Made by a program: the position numbers and the translations under genes | Assembly (NCBI GenBank): GCA_009192285.1 | Contig: WBVU01000004.1 | Coordinates: 4,300,001 to 4,364,000 of the forward strand | Reading direction: 5' to 3' | Origin: Morchella semilibera | Lineage: Eukaryota; Ascomycota; Pezizomycetes; Pezizales; Morchellaceae | Length of the DNA: 64,000 bases | Notes under the pieces: model-generated | The model's input: the letters and a program-made list of their open reading frames with translations, nothing else | The model's database searches: none | What the model was told of the DNA's origin: nothing | Part shown: positions 4,351-41,038 of the stretch, one piece after another | How the letters are laid out: each line of letters opens with the position of its first letter | How positions within the stretch are numbered: position 1 is the first letter of the stretch

Positions 4351-5462
4351 GCCGTCGAACATGTATATAACGCCGATTCTAACGCACCACAACCAGCTAG
4401 CGAAGCCAATTCATCAAACTCCAGGTAAGGTAATTGGTTCGCGAGGCATGCCACGACCATATCGTGATAAAGCGAGACAGTTAGCTAGAGCGGTGCTCTC
4501 GTTAACACACACCGGTTTTGAGCCGGTTCTAGAGTTAGCGGGACATGATTTGTGTGGTGACAAGTTGTTATTGTTAACAAGAGTACTCTTCAAACTAGTA
4601 TTTCCCACCATGATAACTATACAGGTACTGTATGCATTAGACGTCCCCAAGGTCGAGCTACAAACTCATCAAGTTTTACACCGTTGAGGTATGGTTTCCA
4701 AGCTTATGTCCTAGGATAAAGGCGTAGTCGCTAGACTGTCATTGCCGGAAGTTTTTATATTCAAATATTGCCCGGTATGTTAGGATGTAGTCACTCCTTG
4801 GCACAGCTATGTCTGGTAATGACACCGCCAAGCTAACAAGAGCGAGTGAGATTCTATGAACTAGAACTATAGCTAAAACAAGACCTACATTACCATCACC
4901 TAAATATCCCCACACTTGGATTCGAGCCCCTTCCCTCATTCTCTGTATTGATAAAAGAAAGAAAGAAAAAAGAAAAGAAAAAACTGTAACCGTTTATTGT
5001 GATCCATTCCTTTAAACAGAAGAGATAAAAGGTAAAAGAAGTAAGAACCTAGTTAAAAGTAAAAATATAGGAGACAAGAGAGAACCCGAAAAGGAAAGAT
5101 GAAAGACCCCTGCCCCACCCAATACCAGGCCAAACCTGCATCACAAATTCCAAATGACAATAAAACATACAGAAAATGAAATGGTTAAATGGAGAAAGCG
5201 GAGGCCCAGGGTAAGATAGTTGACTTTTAGTGTATGAACCGTGTTGTATATCCCTTGGCGTCCAACCCCGGAACAATACTGCAACGACAAGCTACGCCAC
5301 CATCAAACCCGGCACGAAATACAAGATAGACAAGATAGACCAGAACCGTTGCATCATAAATTCCCCATTTTCTCTAACAAAAAAAGAAAGAAAAAAAAAG
5401 AAAAATGAAAAAGAAAAATGAAAAGGGATAAGAAAAAGAAAGCTTTCATTGTACATTTCAGT

Positions 5463-7205
5463 TTACTGCGACGCACATTGGACTCTCTCACCACCCTGGT
5501 GACCTTCGTCCTCTTCGTCCATGCCTTGCGCAGAAGCCTGCACACGTGCTTGCTGGCTTTGGTCGACCTCTTCCAAGGAAACGTCATCGATCATAGCATC
5601 CGCCGGGATTTCAGGTATATTCCTTGGTGGCAAGATGGCTTCGAGAAGAGAAATCTGCTCGGGGGTGTTGAAGTGGTCCGGAGGGAATTTCACATCGAAT
5701 TGGATGTAGAGGTTACCATGGTCGTGGTGGCGGTATGAGGGCATACCTTGACCACGTACTACCTTAACGGTACCTAGTGGATGAAATTAGTTACTCGTAA
5801 GTCTAATACTTAAGAGTGTTTAACTTACCAGGACTAATGACTTCGCCAGGTGCGATGGATACTGTCAACCAGCGCTCGTCGAGATGCTCAACTGCAATAG
5901 AGCCGCCAGCCAGGGCGGTAAGCAGGTCAATTTCGGCGTGATAGTAGAGGTCATCCCCCTTTCGCTGGAATCTAGCGTGGGGCTTTTGCTCAATAAGGAA
6001 GATGACATCTCCAGGAATGATATCGGGGCCTTGATCTCCCTCTCCGTTGAAAGTAATCTTCTGGCCATCTTGCATACCCTTATCAACATGCACGTGGAGG
6101 ACCTTTCGCTCGGTAATGGTCTTCTTTCCCATGCAGCCCTTGCACTTATCCTTCTCCTTGATGATCTCTCCATCACCGTTACAGTCCGGGCAAACAGTCT
6201 GGAACCTCTGAATCATTGGTCCCATCTGACGCATCATGGTCTTCATACCCTGACCATTGCAGCCGGTACACTTCTTCATTGCGCCTTCCTTTCCACCGCG
6301 ACCATCACACTTGGAACACAGGACACTCTTTTGCAGCGCGAGCTTAGAGACCTTGCCCTTGTACAAATCCTCGAGAGATACTTTATGGGCGTGGATGATA
6401 TCTCGGCTCTGTTCGACATTAGTCTTGTCTATTTCGTAATGGACGGCTTCCGAAGTCATTCGGAAAATAGGGGAAACTCACCCTCTTAGGACCCTGCTGC
6501 TGCATCCCGCCACCGAACATACCGCCCATACCGCCACCCATGCCACCAAAAAACTGGGAGAACAAATCCTCGGCAGACATTCCACCTCCCATTCCACCAT
6601 CGCCAGACAAGCCCTCCTCACCATACTGGTCGTAAACTGATCGCTTCTGGGGATCCGACAAAATTTCATAACTATTGTGCAATCCGAAGTTAGCACTTGA
6701 AATTTGGACTATAATAGCAGAAGGGCAAGCTTACGCATGACCAATTTCTTTGAATTTTTCAGCGGCCTCAGGATTGTGCGCGTTTTTATCTGCAAGGTTG
6801 CAGCTGTTAGTCCCCCTATACTCTATAAAAGGAAACAAAAGGAAGGGGGAAAAAGAAAGGGAGAAAAAGACGAAAAGAACTTTTTGATATCTTTTCTTTT
6901 CGTTCCTCTTCTCCTCTTTCTTTATCTGCAGTCGTGCTACGATTAAGGGGTGGGGGTGGAAGATATGTTATCGCGTACCAGGGTGATATTTCTAAAACAG
7001 CCATGTACCACATTAGTATCCGGGTAAACAAGCCTCAAGAAGTTTCGTGGTCACATGAAACGGAAAGCATGAATCCTCAAGAACATGGGGAAATAAAACT
7101 TACCATAGCAAGTTTTCGGTAAGCCTTCTTGATTTCGGTCTCTGTGGAAGAAGGATCGATCTCAAGGACCTTGTAGAGTCGGTTTTTCTCTGCTTTTTGC
7201 GACAT
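5463..7205 (-). CDS. YDJ1: Type I DnaJ/Hsp40 co-chaperone, farnesylated Ydj1/Mas5 type
   Basis: Cytosolic J-protein that hands unfolded clients to Hsp70 and stimulates its ATPase. Exons in transcript order: 7205-7104, 6991-6979, 6789-6735, 6671-6482, 6408-5829 and 5773-5463, giving 416 aa (yeast Ydj1 is 409). The J-domain starts [20 protein letters not shown] and carries KYHPDKN; a Gly/Met-rich linker follows (about 70-115). The zinc-binding region has four CxxCxGxG-type motifs ([32 protein letters not shown]), then the client-binding domains. The protein ends CASQ, a CaaX farnesylation box identical to that of yeast Ydj1. The second exon is only 13 nt and supplies K-Y-H-P plus the first base of D, so the catalytic HPD motif is split across a splice junction. 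The branch-site-like TACTAAT lies in the intron before it. All introns are GT-AG. Confidence 0.96.
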
Positions 7206-11482: not shown

Positions 11483-14400
11483 TCAAGCAAAAGTCATCGT
11501 CATCTCCCCCTCCCCGCCGCCGGTAAACTCGTCATCATCGTCATCGTCAGCCCACACATTCCTACTCTCCATCCCCATCCCTGCGCCGAATTCTATCCCC
11601 ATCCCTGCTCCCGCACCAGCACCGGCAGCGGCATAGCTCGGCGTCGTATACATGCTCGTGCTCCTCTGCGGCGTCCTATATGCGCCCGCCGAGCCTCTGC
11701 TGCTCTGCGCGCCCAGTCCCAGGCTCCCATACCCTCCGGAGCCAGTCCTTGGCGTCGGCGGCTGATATCCGCCCATGTCAAACGACATGGTTGCCTCCTC
11801 CTCGCCCGGCCTCCGCCGACGGTTCCCAAATTCGTCCTCGCTATCGCTGTCGGCGCCGAAGCCGTTCTTGACAGGCGAGCGGTGGTCACCAAAGCTCTTG
11901 GAGTGACGCAGGTTCGCCGTGGGCGCGCCGAGCATGCCCGTGTTGGTTTTTAGTGTCGGGAGGGTGCTATTGAGCTCTCGGACGGTTAGATGGTCTTCGC
12001 GGCCGGAACGAGCGAGTTCTGCACGGATGGCGTCGACGTCGAAGAGGACGTCGGAGTTGGAGTCCTCCTCTTCCTTCTTCTTTTTGGCGGCGGCCTCCTT
12101 GGCAGCTGTGGCAGAGGGGTCCTCATAAGTCTCCCACTCCTTCTTTTTTGCGGCATCCTTAGTGCCACGGCCAAAGAAGGTGAAGCGCTTCGGCTTCTTG
12201 TCAAGCTCCTTACGTGCCTCATCAAGTTCGCTGATAAGCTCGCGCTGGCGCTCCCGGTGCCGGTCTGGGTCCGGATCCTCAATTTCCGTGAACTCGTCGG
12301 ACAGCACGACGAAGCCGACCCTCCGTAGGAGCTTCGGGACCGCCGCACGGTACGCCATGTGCCCGTCAACGAGGTCCGTGACGTCCACGTTCTCGACGCC
12401 CGGGATACCCTCGACGGGAGCAAGGCCGGCGACACGGAGGATTCCGCCAGACGTGGCCCGGAAGAGATACCCGAGGATCCAGTCGTTGCGGGCGTAGCCG
12501 TTGACGTAGCGTCCAGCGACGGCCGAGACAGCTTTGGAGTATTCGTCCTTTTTGACGACGACGGGAGAGCCGAAGATGTAGACGTTTTGGACGAGGCCAA
12601 AGGCACGCCGGCGCTGCAGCTCCTTGAGGCAGGAGAAGATGACGCGGGCGCCGAGGGAGTAGCCCACGAGGGTGACGGGGCGAACGCCGAGGTTGCGGTT
12701 GATGAGGGAGTCAGCAAGAATAAGACCAGCGGCGTTGGCGCGGTCTAGAGAGACGGACCAGGGATTATCGAGGAGGTAGGAGAGTTTTGTAAGGACGACG
12801 GGGAGCTGGAGAGAGGCCATGAGAGCGACGAGAATGGTAGAGCCGAGGATTTGTTGGAGGGATTGTGTTAGGACCTGTTAAAGTTAGCCAAGAGGGAGAA
12901 GATGTATAATAGGGACATATATATACCTCTGTGGCGAGAATGTTGATAGTCTTCCCCATGGAGGTCAACATCTCAGGCTCCCAATGGACGGAGAATAGAT
13001 CCCCCATAATCGGATCTATCGTCGAGTACGGCAATCGGACATCGTCGACCTTTCCGCTCATCCATCTAACCCCACTTTATCAGCTCCAGTCCTCCCCTCC
13101 TCTCCCATCAGGTCACGAAAACTCACCCCGAGATGGTAATGATCAGGTTGACACGTTTTGCATTATGCAGCGGTCTATACTCAAATGTCGTCACGCTCTT
13201 CGTCCGATTATAACTTGCCTTCCCGCCAATTGCCGCCCCTGATGCAACCATCGTGCTCGCAATGACTGCCGTGCCCCCAGCTCCTGCCAAGAAGGTGCCC
13301 GTCCCCGCAACCCCGATAGTCGTGAACCCGGCCGCCAACCCCGCGCCGATAACAGGCGCCAGCAACCCACCACTCAGCCCAATTACTAAGCCTCCTCCAA
13401 TAGTTGCAAGACCCATCATCATGTACCGCATGTTCCTCGCGCGTTTCATCCGTGTCTCCATGTGTTCCTGCTCGCTCCAGTTCTGCTCGGTGGATTCCTG
13501 GATCTCGAGGGCGTCCGTCACGCGCTTCTCGAAGCGGCAGATGTCGAGCCAAGGGACACCAAGCATGTTTCCGACGCGCTCAAGCAGGACGCGGGAGCGC
13601 GCATCGTACACACTGTCGGCGATGAGCACCAGGAACAGGTCGCAGAGAACCGTCCAGCGGATGTCAATATCGAGGGTCTGGGAGTTCAACTGCGAGGGGT
13701 CCTGGACAGACGGAAGATCCTTCTCTGAATATGGGGGTGGGACTGACGCCGAGATATCACCGCTGTCCGATAGCACCGAGGACTGGCGCGGGGAACCCGG
13801 TGACCCGGCAGCCATGGGATTGGAGACTCGCGAGTTCTTGAGGAGCGTCGGCGTGAGATCACTCGAGAGCACGCCGTGCTCCGCAAGCTGCTCAATCATA
13901 ATCTGCTCTATCGCACACCGTCAGCGCTCACCCGCAATTCCCACTCCCCCAATCCCCAAGTACTCGAGAAAACTCACCAGCAGGAGATATATCCATGTGC
14001 ATATACAGGCGCACCATCATCTTCTGACTCCACATCTTCATGCTCTCCCTCGCGGCGTTCAGCTCCTTCTTTATATTCTTCCCCTTGCTGCCCTCGAGCT
14101 TAGCCACCTCCACCGTCATCTCCTCCACGGCCAGCTTGCACACACCCACATACGCAATTCGCTGCCCCTCCGTTAGCAGCTCCTTCGTCGCCTGCATCTG
14201 GCTCAGCGGGTTGCGCGACGCCTCATCGTCGTCCGTTCCCTCTTTAAACAAGTAGCTTGTGTTCTCATCCATGCTCGTTACACTCTGCGTGTCCTCGTCG
14301 TCGTATACGCGCGTGTAGCCCTTCGCCGCGCCGCCCTTGACGTCCTCGTCGTCTGAATCTAAAGCCGCTTTCGCAACCAGACGCCCATCATCGTCGTACA

Positions 14401-38570: not shown

Positions 38571-38709
38571 GATCTCTGTATCCCCCCCGTCCTCGACAAT
38601 CCTCTATCCAACTCACAGCTCTCCCAACCTTGATCACCCATCCTTCATCTTTAACACCTCACCATTTCGCCAGAAAGTTAATTAGACCTAAAATCCCACA
38701 ATTAATACA

Positions 38710-39461
38710 ATGGCTCCCCGCGTTGCTATCATTATCTACTCCATGTACGGCCACATTGCCCAGTTGGCCGAGGCTGAGAAGGCTGGTATTGAGTCCGCTG
38801 GTGGTTCTGCTACCATCCTCCAGTAAGTATTCGTAAAAGTTTTGCCATTGAAGCAGTAGCATTGCTTCAAAAGCTAGGCCCTTGCTTACATTTTTCTTTA
38901 GGGTCCCTGAGACTCTTCCCGATGAGGTTCTTGCAAAGATGCACGCACCACCCAAGCCTGCCTACCCAATTGTTAGCGCTAAGGACCTGAAGAACTACGA
39001 TGCTTTCCTCTTCGGTATCCCTACACGTTACGGAAACTTCCCGGGGCAGTGGAAGGCTTTCATTGACACCACCGGTGGTCTCTGGGGCGAGGGTGCTCTC
39101 ACCGGAAAGTACGCTGGTGTCTTCATCTCCACCGGTACCCAGGGTGGTGGACAAGAGGTTACTGCCTTGAACGCCATGTCCACTTTTGCTCACCATGGAA
39201 TCATCTTCGTTCCCTTCGGATACAAGCACGCTTTCCCAATCCTTGCCTCCAACGAGGAGGTCCGCGGCGGATCCCCATGGGGTGCCGGTACCTTTGCTGT
39301 AAGCTTTCACCCCATTGCCCATTAAACTTCCGTCTGCAGCTTGCTAATTAAGTTCATAGGGTGCCGACGGTTCCCGCCAGCCCTCAGCAAAGGAGCTCGA
39401 GATTGCCACCATCCAGGGCAAGACGTACTACGAGACTGTCGCTCGTGTCAACTTCGCGTGA
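38710..39461 (+). CDS. PST2: Pst2/WrbA-type flavodoxin-like NAD(P)H:quinone oxidoreductase
   Basis: FMN-dependent two-electron quinone reductase of the WrbA/Pst2 family. In yeast the Pst2, Rfs1 and Ycp4 members sit at the plasma membrane in eisosomes and protect against quinone and oxidative stress. Exons: 38710-38822, 38902-39298 and 39360-39461, giving 203 aa, the same size as the Alt a 7 group. Seen motifs: [17 protein letters not shown] (phosphate-binding loop for FMN), [29 protein letters not shown] and [11 protein letters not shown], ending [11 protein letters not shown] and TGA. The frame stays open directly after this TGA for 55 further codons (separate entry). A TATA-like box lies 140 bases upstream. 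Confidence is high for the family; localisation is inferred from yeast. Confidence 0.95.
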
Positions 39462-39629
39462 CTGCATGGCACCCCCGAGAAGCTAGCAGCCACCGCGGAG
39501 GCGCCAGCAGCATCAACATCAAAAACAGAAAACACAGAAAAGAAAGATGTCGTCCCAGAGAAGAAGAAGAAGGATATTGATGAGGAGGGTGGTCCCTGCG
39601 GGCTACCAGCCAAATGCGATATCATCTAG
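39462..39629 (+). other. In-frame 55-codon extension after the flavodoxin stop, ending in a CaaX-like motif
   Basis: Immediately after TGA (39459-39461) the same frame reads CTG CAT GGC and stays open to TAG at 39627-39629. It encodes LHGTPEKLAATAEAPAAST, a Lys/Glu-rich linker (EKKDVVPEKKKKDIDEEGG) and the end GPCGLPAKCDII. The composition looks like an ordinary tail: Ala/Pro/Thr, then charged, then two cysteines with the last in CaaX position. It does not look like 3' UTR. TGA followed by CT is a known leaky context. No intron of normal size would remove the stop. A TGA sequencing error is the main alternative. Confidence 0.6.
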
Positions 39630-41038
39630 GGGGGACAAAGAGTAAGAGCAATAATTATAATGTATAGGTGCTAGCCGGTGTGCATACAAACTCTTATCTT
39701 TTGTTTCTTCTGATGTACTTTTTGCTTCCCTTTGGTCTTTTCGGGCATTGGTAATTTTTTTTGTTTTGTGTTTAATAGCGTAGCGTCTTTACTATTGGTA
39801 CCAATTAAAGTAACTTCTAAAAAATGCTTGTTGAGTGATGATTATATGTGGTCGGGCCTCCATTAGTTGTGCGACACTGTCAGCATATTCCACCTTCTTC
39901 AACTCTTACATAGCAGCTACTGGAAGGCTCAGACCCAACACCGTTCCTCTTGTAGCTCAACAGACCCCTAAGCGAACCACTTGCCGCGCCCGATGTGTAC
40001 TCAGCCAAACCCAGCCCTGCAGGACAGGGATCCTATATTCCATTGTACCTATTCGCTGTACAACGGTTCCGGACAGAGAACATTGGCATGCGCTACGTAG
40101 AACATTTCGCAATTACGAGCAGGATCGCGATATCATTCATGGACACCTGGATCATCGGAGCGGGGTTTCGGCACGGAGAACGTGTGGTGTCTGAGATGCC
40201 CGTTGTAAGGAGATAAGTACATGTACATGTACTCTATGCATGCGGCCCAAGGCTGACAGGTTTAGAGTAAACGGTCTGCAGGGTGCATGTCTTTACGGGG
40301 GCGAGCGTAACCGAGTGATGGGGGGTGATTAAGGAATTATTTAGAGAAAGATAAAATGGAGTGAGTGAGGACCCGCTTGGGTTTGATTGTTGATGGGGTG
40401 CTTGAAGAAGTTGATCTGTGGTCGTAACGATTGTGGTTGTTACCTGTTTGCATGTAGGATTTCGCAGTCTTAATAGAGGACACTCATTATTTAACCCTAA
40501 CGTCTATTGGTCCACTCTTCCTTCAATTCAGGCATCAGTCCTTATACGTGTAGTACACCCTTCGCCAATTCTCCTCAGCTCAGAGCTCCCGATAAAAAAA
40601 AGGCCTCCTATACACTATAGCTAAGGGACTGATTCTCTGCCTAAGCTCAGTGTCCCTGTTGAACTCACTGGCATAAACGGCGCGTTAAGAGGGGGCGCCC
40701 TGAAAATATCTATCTAGAACACATTCACATTATGATGCATCGGGAACTGGACTCCTCGATATCAGCATAAACACATAAGTCAATCTAGGCCCCGAATCAA
40801 GCTTCTCATTCCAAAAGCCCCCATCTTCCTTCCCTAGTTCGCCAGAGCTACATATGCACACTCCCTGCGCTGCCTCAAGCCCGCATAGCCACAATAAAAC
40901 AAATAATAACAACTCTAGCTTTGAGGGTTAGGGTTGCAAAACTTGGCTTCAACACAGCGCACTCCCGCGATTGGCTTTTTTCACAGGCACCAGCGCAGGT
41001 ACCGAATTCCACCCACAAACGCATCCACGCCACACCCA
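39630..41038. other. Intergenic, no gene seen
   Basis: The T-rich 3' region of the flavodoxin gene, then about 1 kb without coding signature. Two overlapping TACATGTA copies lie at 40218-40231. The MSH1 promoter, with TTAGGG-like words, lies near 40924. Confidence 0.55.
40922..40935 (+). promoter_or_regulatory. Telobox-like AGGGTTAGGG upstream of MSH1
   Basis: GAGGGTTAGGGTTG lies about 105 bases before the MSH1 start. TTAGGG words in promoters can be bound by Tbf1-type factors in fungi. Only the motif is seen here; the function is inferred. Confidence 0.3.

Follow-up and report, generated by a model that had tools for sequence, protein, structure and literature searches.

Does the TGA at the end of a Morchella semilibera quinone reductase gene terminate its protein, or is it sometimes read through to give a longer, lipid-anchored form? 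We analysed this question in the window, a stretch of 64,000 nt whose positions are used below, and in the genome assembly to which it belongs. The features of the locus are listed in Table 1.

Table 1. Features of the reductase gene and of the frame behind its TGA
Feature	Position	Strand	Basis
Exon 1, WrbA/Pst2-type NAD(P)H:quinone oxidoreductase gene	38710..38822	+	spliced translation; Pst2 identity; PDB 5mp4 match
Intron 1, GTAAGT...TAG, 79 nt	38823..38901	+	inferred from frame and homology
Exon 2, flavodoxin core	38902..39298	+	homology, spliced translation
Intron 2, GTAAGC...TAG, 61 nt	39299..39359	+	inferred from frame and homology
Exon 3 through TGA, 33 residues coded	39360..39461	+	spliced translation
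UGA CUG, stop then CU, core leaky context of Ustilago maydis	39459..39464	+	sequence; PMC4207609
In-frame 55-codon extension, coding composition	39462..39626	+	translation, codon scores
Predicted RNA hairpin, from the first post-stop base	39462..39510	+	folding compared with shuffles
Polybasic KKKK	39561..39572	+	translation
Second cysteine (GPC), possible acylation site	39597..39599	+	translation
CDII, cysteine in CaaX position	39615..39626	+	translation
TAG closing the extension; coding signal and GC drop here	39627..39629	+	codon scores

The quinone reductase gene and its family

The gene extends from an ATG at 38710 to 39461 on the + strand, contains two introns and encodes 203 aa. The yeast Pst2 structure (PDB 5mp4) matched residues 3-199 of the protein with an E value of 4.4e-85, the identity to yeast Pst2 in the alignment was 67%, and the TIGR01755 profile scored 138.1 bits on exon 2 (cut-off 132.5), bearing out the flavodoxin and quinone reductase identity given in the initial annotation. 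Pfam FMN_red scored 43 bits on the reductase (cut-off 24). By homology across the domain, the gene is a member of the WrbA/Pst2 flavodoxin-like quinone reductases, and its product is a putative FMN-dependent NAD(P)H:quinone reductase. The match to S. cerevisiae Pst2 ends at residue 199, whereas the morel TGA comes after residue 203; the TGA thus lies four residues past the end of the Pst2 match, at a site suited to a genuine terminator and in line with the earlier description of this stop as a family-typical end. Pst2 is a 198-residue chain without a counterpart of the 55-codon extension.

With a protein query and the family profile, we detected a single WrbA-family gene in the genome (56,756,124 bases, 23 contigs), in a search that read the genome exon-wise and scored the best candidates alone. 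A second gene copy was rejected on the basis of this one match.

Other features were observed in the window and the assembly. A DUF726 protein is encoded on the - strand of the window at 11483-13920, over at least two open stretches. In contig C22, an SLA2-type I/LWEQ domain lies at 2,185,712-2,186,154; by these coordinates, though under another contig number, it falls barely within the mating locus published for Morchella crassipes M10M26 at scaffold08:2,185,575-2,216,748 (PMC7014384). Two contigs, C9 (2,071,371 bp) and C10 (2,071,177 bp), were identical at all 3,108 compared bases (C9:427579-430686 and C10:427619-430726), possibly reflecting a duplicated assembly scaffold or a duplicated chromosome. 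A 5.8S rRNA-like stretch within C19:2698087-2701258 scored 39.5 bits, below the Rfam gathering score of 42, and was the sole match reported, with 39 of 1,209 candidates scored; by eye, it carries an insertion and has no rDNA around it.

The open frame behind the TGA

The frame between the TGA (39459-39461) and the TAG encodes LHGTPEKLAATAEAPAASTSKTENTEKKDVVPEKKKKDIDEEGGPCGLPAKCDII. The count of 55 open in-frame codons given in the initial annotation was exact. Neither an ATG nor a Met occurs anywhere in the extension, and an independent small ORF was therefore rejected. At least 55 open codons followed 8 of the 73 long-ORF stops, so the open frame alone is not evidence of coding.

We scored codon usage with a model whose training set was made up of ORFs with 300 codons or more, taken from the window and from 200 kb of the same contig. 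At 0.301 bit per codon, the extension scored above exon 2 (0.192); the means of 55-codon windows were 0.131 for coding sequence (n = 1,334) and -0.115 for noncoding sequence (n = 17,496). The score of the extension was reached by none of the 73 post-stop windows, whose reference stops were drawn from long ORFs without gene-by-gene checking and are possibly intronic in some cases, and by 0.14% of the 17,496 background windows, whose mask retains short exons, so that the tests tend to be conservative. Outside the masked long ORFs, 1,247 stretches of 45-70 codons ran from one stop to the next: one scored at least 0.30, 36 had C at -4, 7 had the pattern C.[ILVM]. and none combined a score of at least 0.30 with C at -4. 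The synonymous-codon score of the extension was 0.107 (coding mean 0.069, noncoding mean -0.062), a value reached by 1.9% of background windows. The successive thirds of the extension scored 0.383, 0.346 and 0.170, whereas past the TAG the score over 55 codons was -0.41; GC dropped from 0.527 to 0.345 between the extension and the 200 bases behind it. Because the extension scores as coding, with a positive value in all thirds and a collapse past the TAG, it is translated now or was in the recent past, and the coding boundary is the TAG rather than the TGA. The extension therefore reads like protein, as had been claimed, in its codon scores. No signs of decay such as internal stops were found in it.

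No Pfam family was found for the tail and no Rfam family within 38600-40000. A paralogous tail was rejected, as the tail search returned the self-match and two weak matches (E 0.318). The 21-base stretch starting at the TGA occurred once, no relatives were found in collections of viral contigs and prokaryote genome contigs, and a literature search for the tail motif in several spellings gave no match.

The extension is made up of a linker of Ala/Pro/Thr and Lys/Glu, which by eye reads as disordered, KKKK, GPC and a terminal CDII. At its end, a cysteine is followed by five residues and then CDII; both the cysteine in CaaX position and the second cysteine nearby, as described in the initial annotation, are thus present in the translation. 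CDII has Cys at -4, an aliphatic a2 and a permissive X. With its aliphatic a2 and its Ile as X, this end suits a prenylation signal, while an acidic Asp at a1 is unusual. Judged from these residues, CDII is a plausible CaaX anchor signal. Among 18,547 tetrapeptides preceding a stop, on both strands and in all frames, 0.74% had the pattern C.[ILVM].; of the 74 post-stop extensions, 2 had C at -4.

A Ydj1-type Hsp40 is encoded on the - strand of the window at about 5300-6477, with DnaJ_C and zinc-finger domains, and the frame that follows ends in CASQ and a stop, as yeast Ydj1 does. This end is a useful control: CaaX ends in this genome look as expected.

Like the morel gene, Candida albicans Ycp4 encodes a WrbA/Pst2-type quinone reductase with a C-terminal extension ending in CAAX. 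Its tail of about 90 aa is described as likely lipid-modified and, in the passages of PMC4556627 on the four C. albicans FLPs, a CaaX tail is described for Ycp4 only. The Ycp4 tail is integral to the protein, whereas the 55-aa morel tail lies beyond a UGA; the sense-codon continuity of domain and tail that characterizes Ycp4 is interrupted by the TGA in this assembly. In addition, Ycp4 is one of four paralogues, whereas one gene was detected in the morel genome. When fused to GFP, each of the four FLPs gave a signal at the plasma membrane, together with some cytoplasmic signal that, according to the authors, may be free GFP (PMC4556627, same passages). Since FLPs without a described CaaX tail are also found at the plasma membrane, the tail is not required for localization there, and a morel anchor would reinforce membrane association rather than create it. 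The earlier appeal to plasma-membrane relatives thus gained the C. albicans FLPs, including a CaaX-tailed member, but not a need for the tail. Both Ycp4 and CDII are absent from PMC9231725, which deals with yeast CaaX motifs.

Stop context and predicted RNA structure

In Ustilago maydis, a UGA followed by CU is sufficient for efficient readthrough, with the first two post-stop bases weighing most, and in HeLa cells an A as the third base increases readthrough further (PMC4207609, in the passages on stop context). The UGA-then-CU of programmed readthrough genes is found at 39459-39464 of the morel window (TGACTG), and the Ustilago data support the earlier statement that TGA-CT is a leaky context in fungi. 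Ustilago tpi1, art1 and rpe1, as well as MDH1 and LDHB, resemble the morel gene in that a metabolic enzyme is combined with UGA CU and a terminal targeting signal. The Ustilago and animal cases hide a peroxisomal PTS1, whereas the morel signal would be a predicted lipid-anchor CaaX, and the third post-stop base is A in the UGA CU readthrough enzymes but G in the morel gene (PMC4207609, same passages). TGA CT occurred at 3 of 74 reference stops, so that the context by itself is weak support. The triplet CUG is absent from PMC12233894, which deals with stop contexts.

Folding predicted a stable hairpin directly downstream of the stop. The 73-nt fold 39459-39531, one of five stretches folded in that run, had a free energy of -23.0 kcal/mol and a z of -3.13, with none of 200 shuffles as stable; a repeat with 400 shuffles gave a z of -3.48. 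The 50 nt past the stop (39462-39511) gave a z of -2.29 (3 of 200 shuffles), and a 142-nt fold gave -1.96 (7 of 200 shuffles). Neighbouring windows were weaker, with z values of -2.16 at 39450 and -2.23 at 39465. None of the 74 other stops reached a z of -3.0 or below (60 shuffles each), and for one of the 74 the MFE over the initial 70 nt past the stop was as low. Among coding windows (n = 400, 40 shuffles each), 1.5% had a z of -3.0 or below and 9.75% an MFE of -23 or below. The predicted hairpin is supportive of readthrough without proving it. Together with the single detected copy and the lack of a convincing stop-removing intron among the inspected pairs (see below), it is new here relative to the initial annotation. 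A second unusually stable fold was predicted within the extension (39555-39627, z -3.32).

Readthrough and the competing explanations

We consider it about an even chance (roughly 0.5) that the UGA of the quinone reductase gene is read through, which would yield a soluble form and a minor lipid-anchored form; this value and the gradings of the other explanations are judgements and not calculated. Three features favour a real but leaky terminator: the TGA lies near the end of the domain, it stands in a UGA CU context and it is followed by the hairpin. The first two possibly drew attention to the locus in the beginning, and both were discounted for this reason.

Readthrough and mutation each account for a coding tail. 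In morels the protein could normally be about 259 aa long and constitutively carry a CaaX tail of the Ycp4 type, a substitution having made the TGA in the strain or in the assembly. The full coding character of the extension, synonymous choice included, agrees with this, and codon usage equal to that of ordinary genes might mean that the whole tail was translated until recently. Nevertheless, the TGA adjoins the family-typical C-terminus and does not lie elsewhere in the tail, and it is directly followed by CU and then by the strong predicted hairpin, so that we regard such an origin as rather unlikely, though it is the strongest competitor of readthrough. As for a base error, substitution errors are less common than indels in hybrid Illumina/PacBio assemblies, which argues against it. 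The assembly is a 2020 Illumina and PacBio RSII hybrid, and a search for the word 'polish' gave no match in PMC7014384, which leaves some room for such an error. The sequenced strain, M10M26, is a monospore isolate (PMC7014384), which makes a mixed allele unlikely if the strain is homokaryotic, as its origin suggests. A constitutively CaaX-tailed FLP does exist in Ycp4 (PMC4556627), consistent with a mutated tail.

It is considerably less probable that the TGA terminates translation efficiently, like any other stop, and that the extension is left over from an older tail, or is a chance 3'-UTR frame, without function now. Equally long open frames do trail other stops, as counted above, but the coding score has one equal among the 1,247 comparable stretches and none that also has C at -4; moreover, the extension is free of decay and its signal stops at the TAG. 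The coding score and the boundary position at the TAG made a chance 3'-UTR frame in particular unlikely.

That a short intron removes the TGA, so that all transcripts or a part of them carry the flavodoxin domain fused to the tail, appears improbable. We scanned 372 donor/acceptor pairs that would remove the TGA, GC donors included, and inspected the top 25 together with the top 15 that keep the frame; 20 pairs of a GT-only scan that included the canonical intron-2 donor were inspected as well. No convincing stop-removing intron was found among the inspected pairs. The GC donor at 39418 (GCAAGA), combined with in-frame acceptors from 39486 (CTAG, 69 nt) on, would excise the TGA, and it scored 8 with the acceptor point (7 for the donor alone) compared with 8 and 6 for the donors of the gene, in a simple donor score that does not penalize GC. 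However, GC-AG introns are rare, and this one would remove 10 conserved residues at the end of the domain. The canonical intron-2 donor keeps the frame with 11 AG sites beyond the TGA, but the whole of exon 3 would be lost and the acceptors are AAG or GAG. The top frame-keeping GT donor within exon 3 scored -1, whereas the two donors of the gene itself reach 8 and 6. The only branch-like [CT]T[AG]A[CT] motif in 39401-39630 is TTGAT at 39577, a weak negative given that by eye one of the two real introns has such a motif. Loss of the stop through A-to-I RNA editing would have a precedent in some fungi, the Sordariomycetes, where this editing is known. The edited A is preferentially preceded by U, as in UAG, and in UGA it is preceded by G, so we give editing hardly any weight.

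If the UGA is read through, most ribosomes would halt at it past residue 203 and release the soluble enzyme, and a minority, probably a few percent, would pass it, aided by the following CU and probably by the hairpin. Readthrough would add the flexible linker, the KKKK patch, the cysteine and CDII. CDII would be prenylated and the nearby cysteine perhaps palmitoylated, holding the reductase on a membrane as has been inferred for Candida Ycp4. The readthrough form may increase under oxidative stress; stop-codon readthrough is described as rising in oxidative stress in passages of a review (PMC11616006), and such a rise would suit an antioxidant enzyme. Slightly below even odds, in our judgement, stands the fuller proposal that one gene with a leaky UGA CU and a hairpin uses regulated readthrough to make a minor CaaX-lipidated isoform, possibly more of it under oxidative stress. 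As part of that proposal taken as a whole, and with the same reserve, the single morel gene would cover roles that C. albicans splits between Ycp4 and the other FLPs.

A literature search combining 'stop codon readthrough' and 'CaaX' gave no natural case by title among the papers listed, the two terms occurring apart in passages of two of them, and 'stop codon readthrough' was absent among the matches listed in a wider search. A hidden lipid anchor, if true, would extend the readthrough principle from peroxisomal signals to membrane targeting, and it would offer a simple way to move an antioxidant enzyme onto the membrane that it protects.
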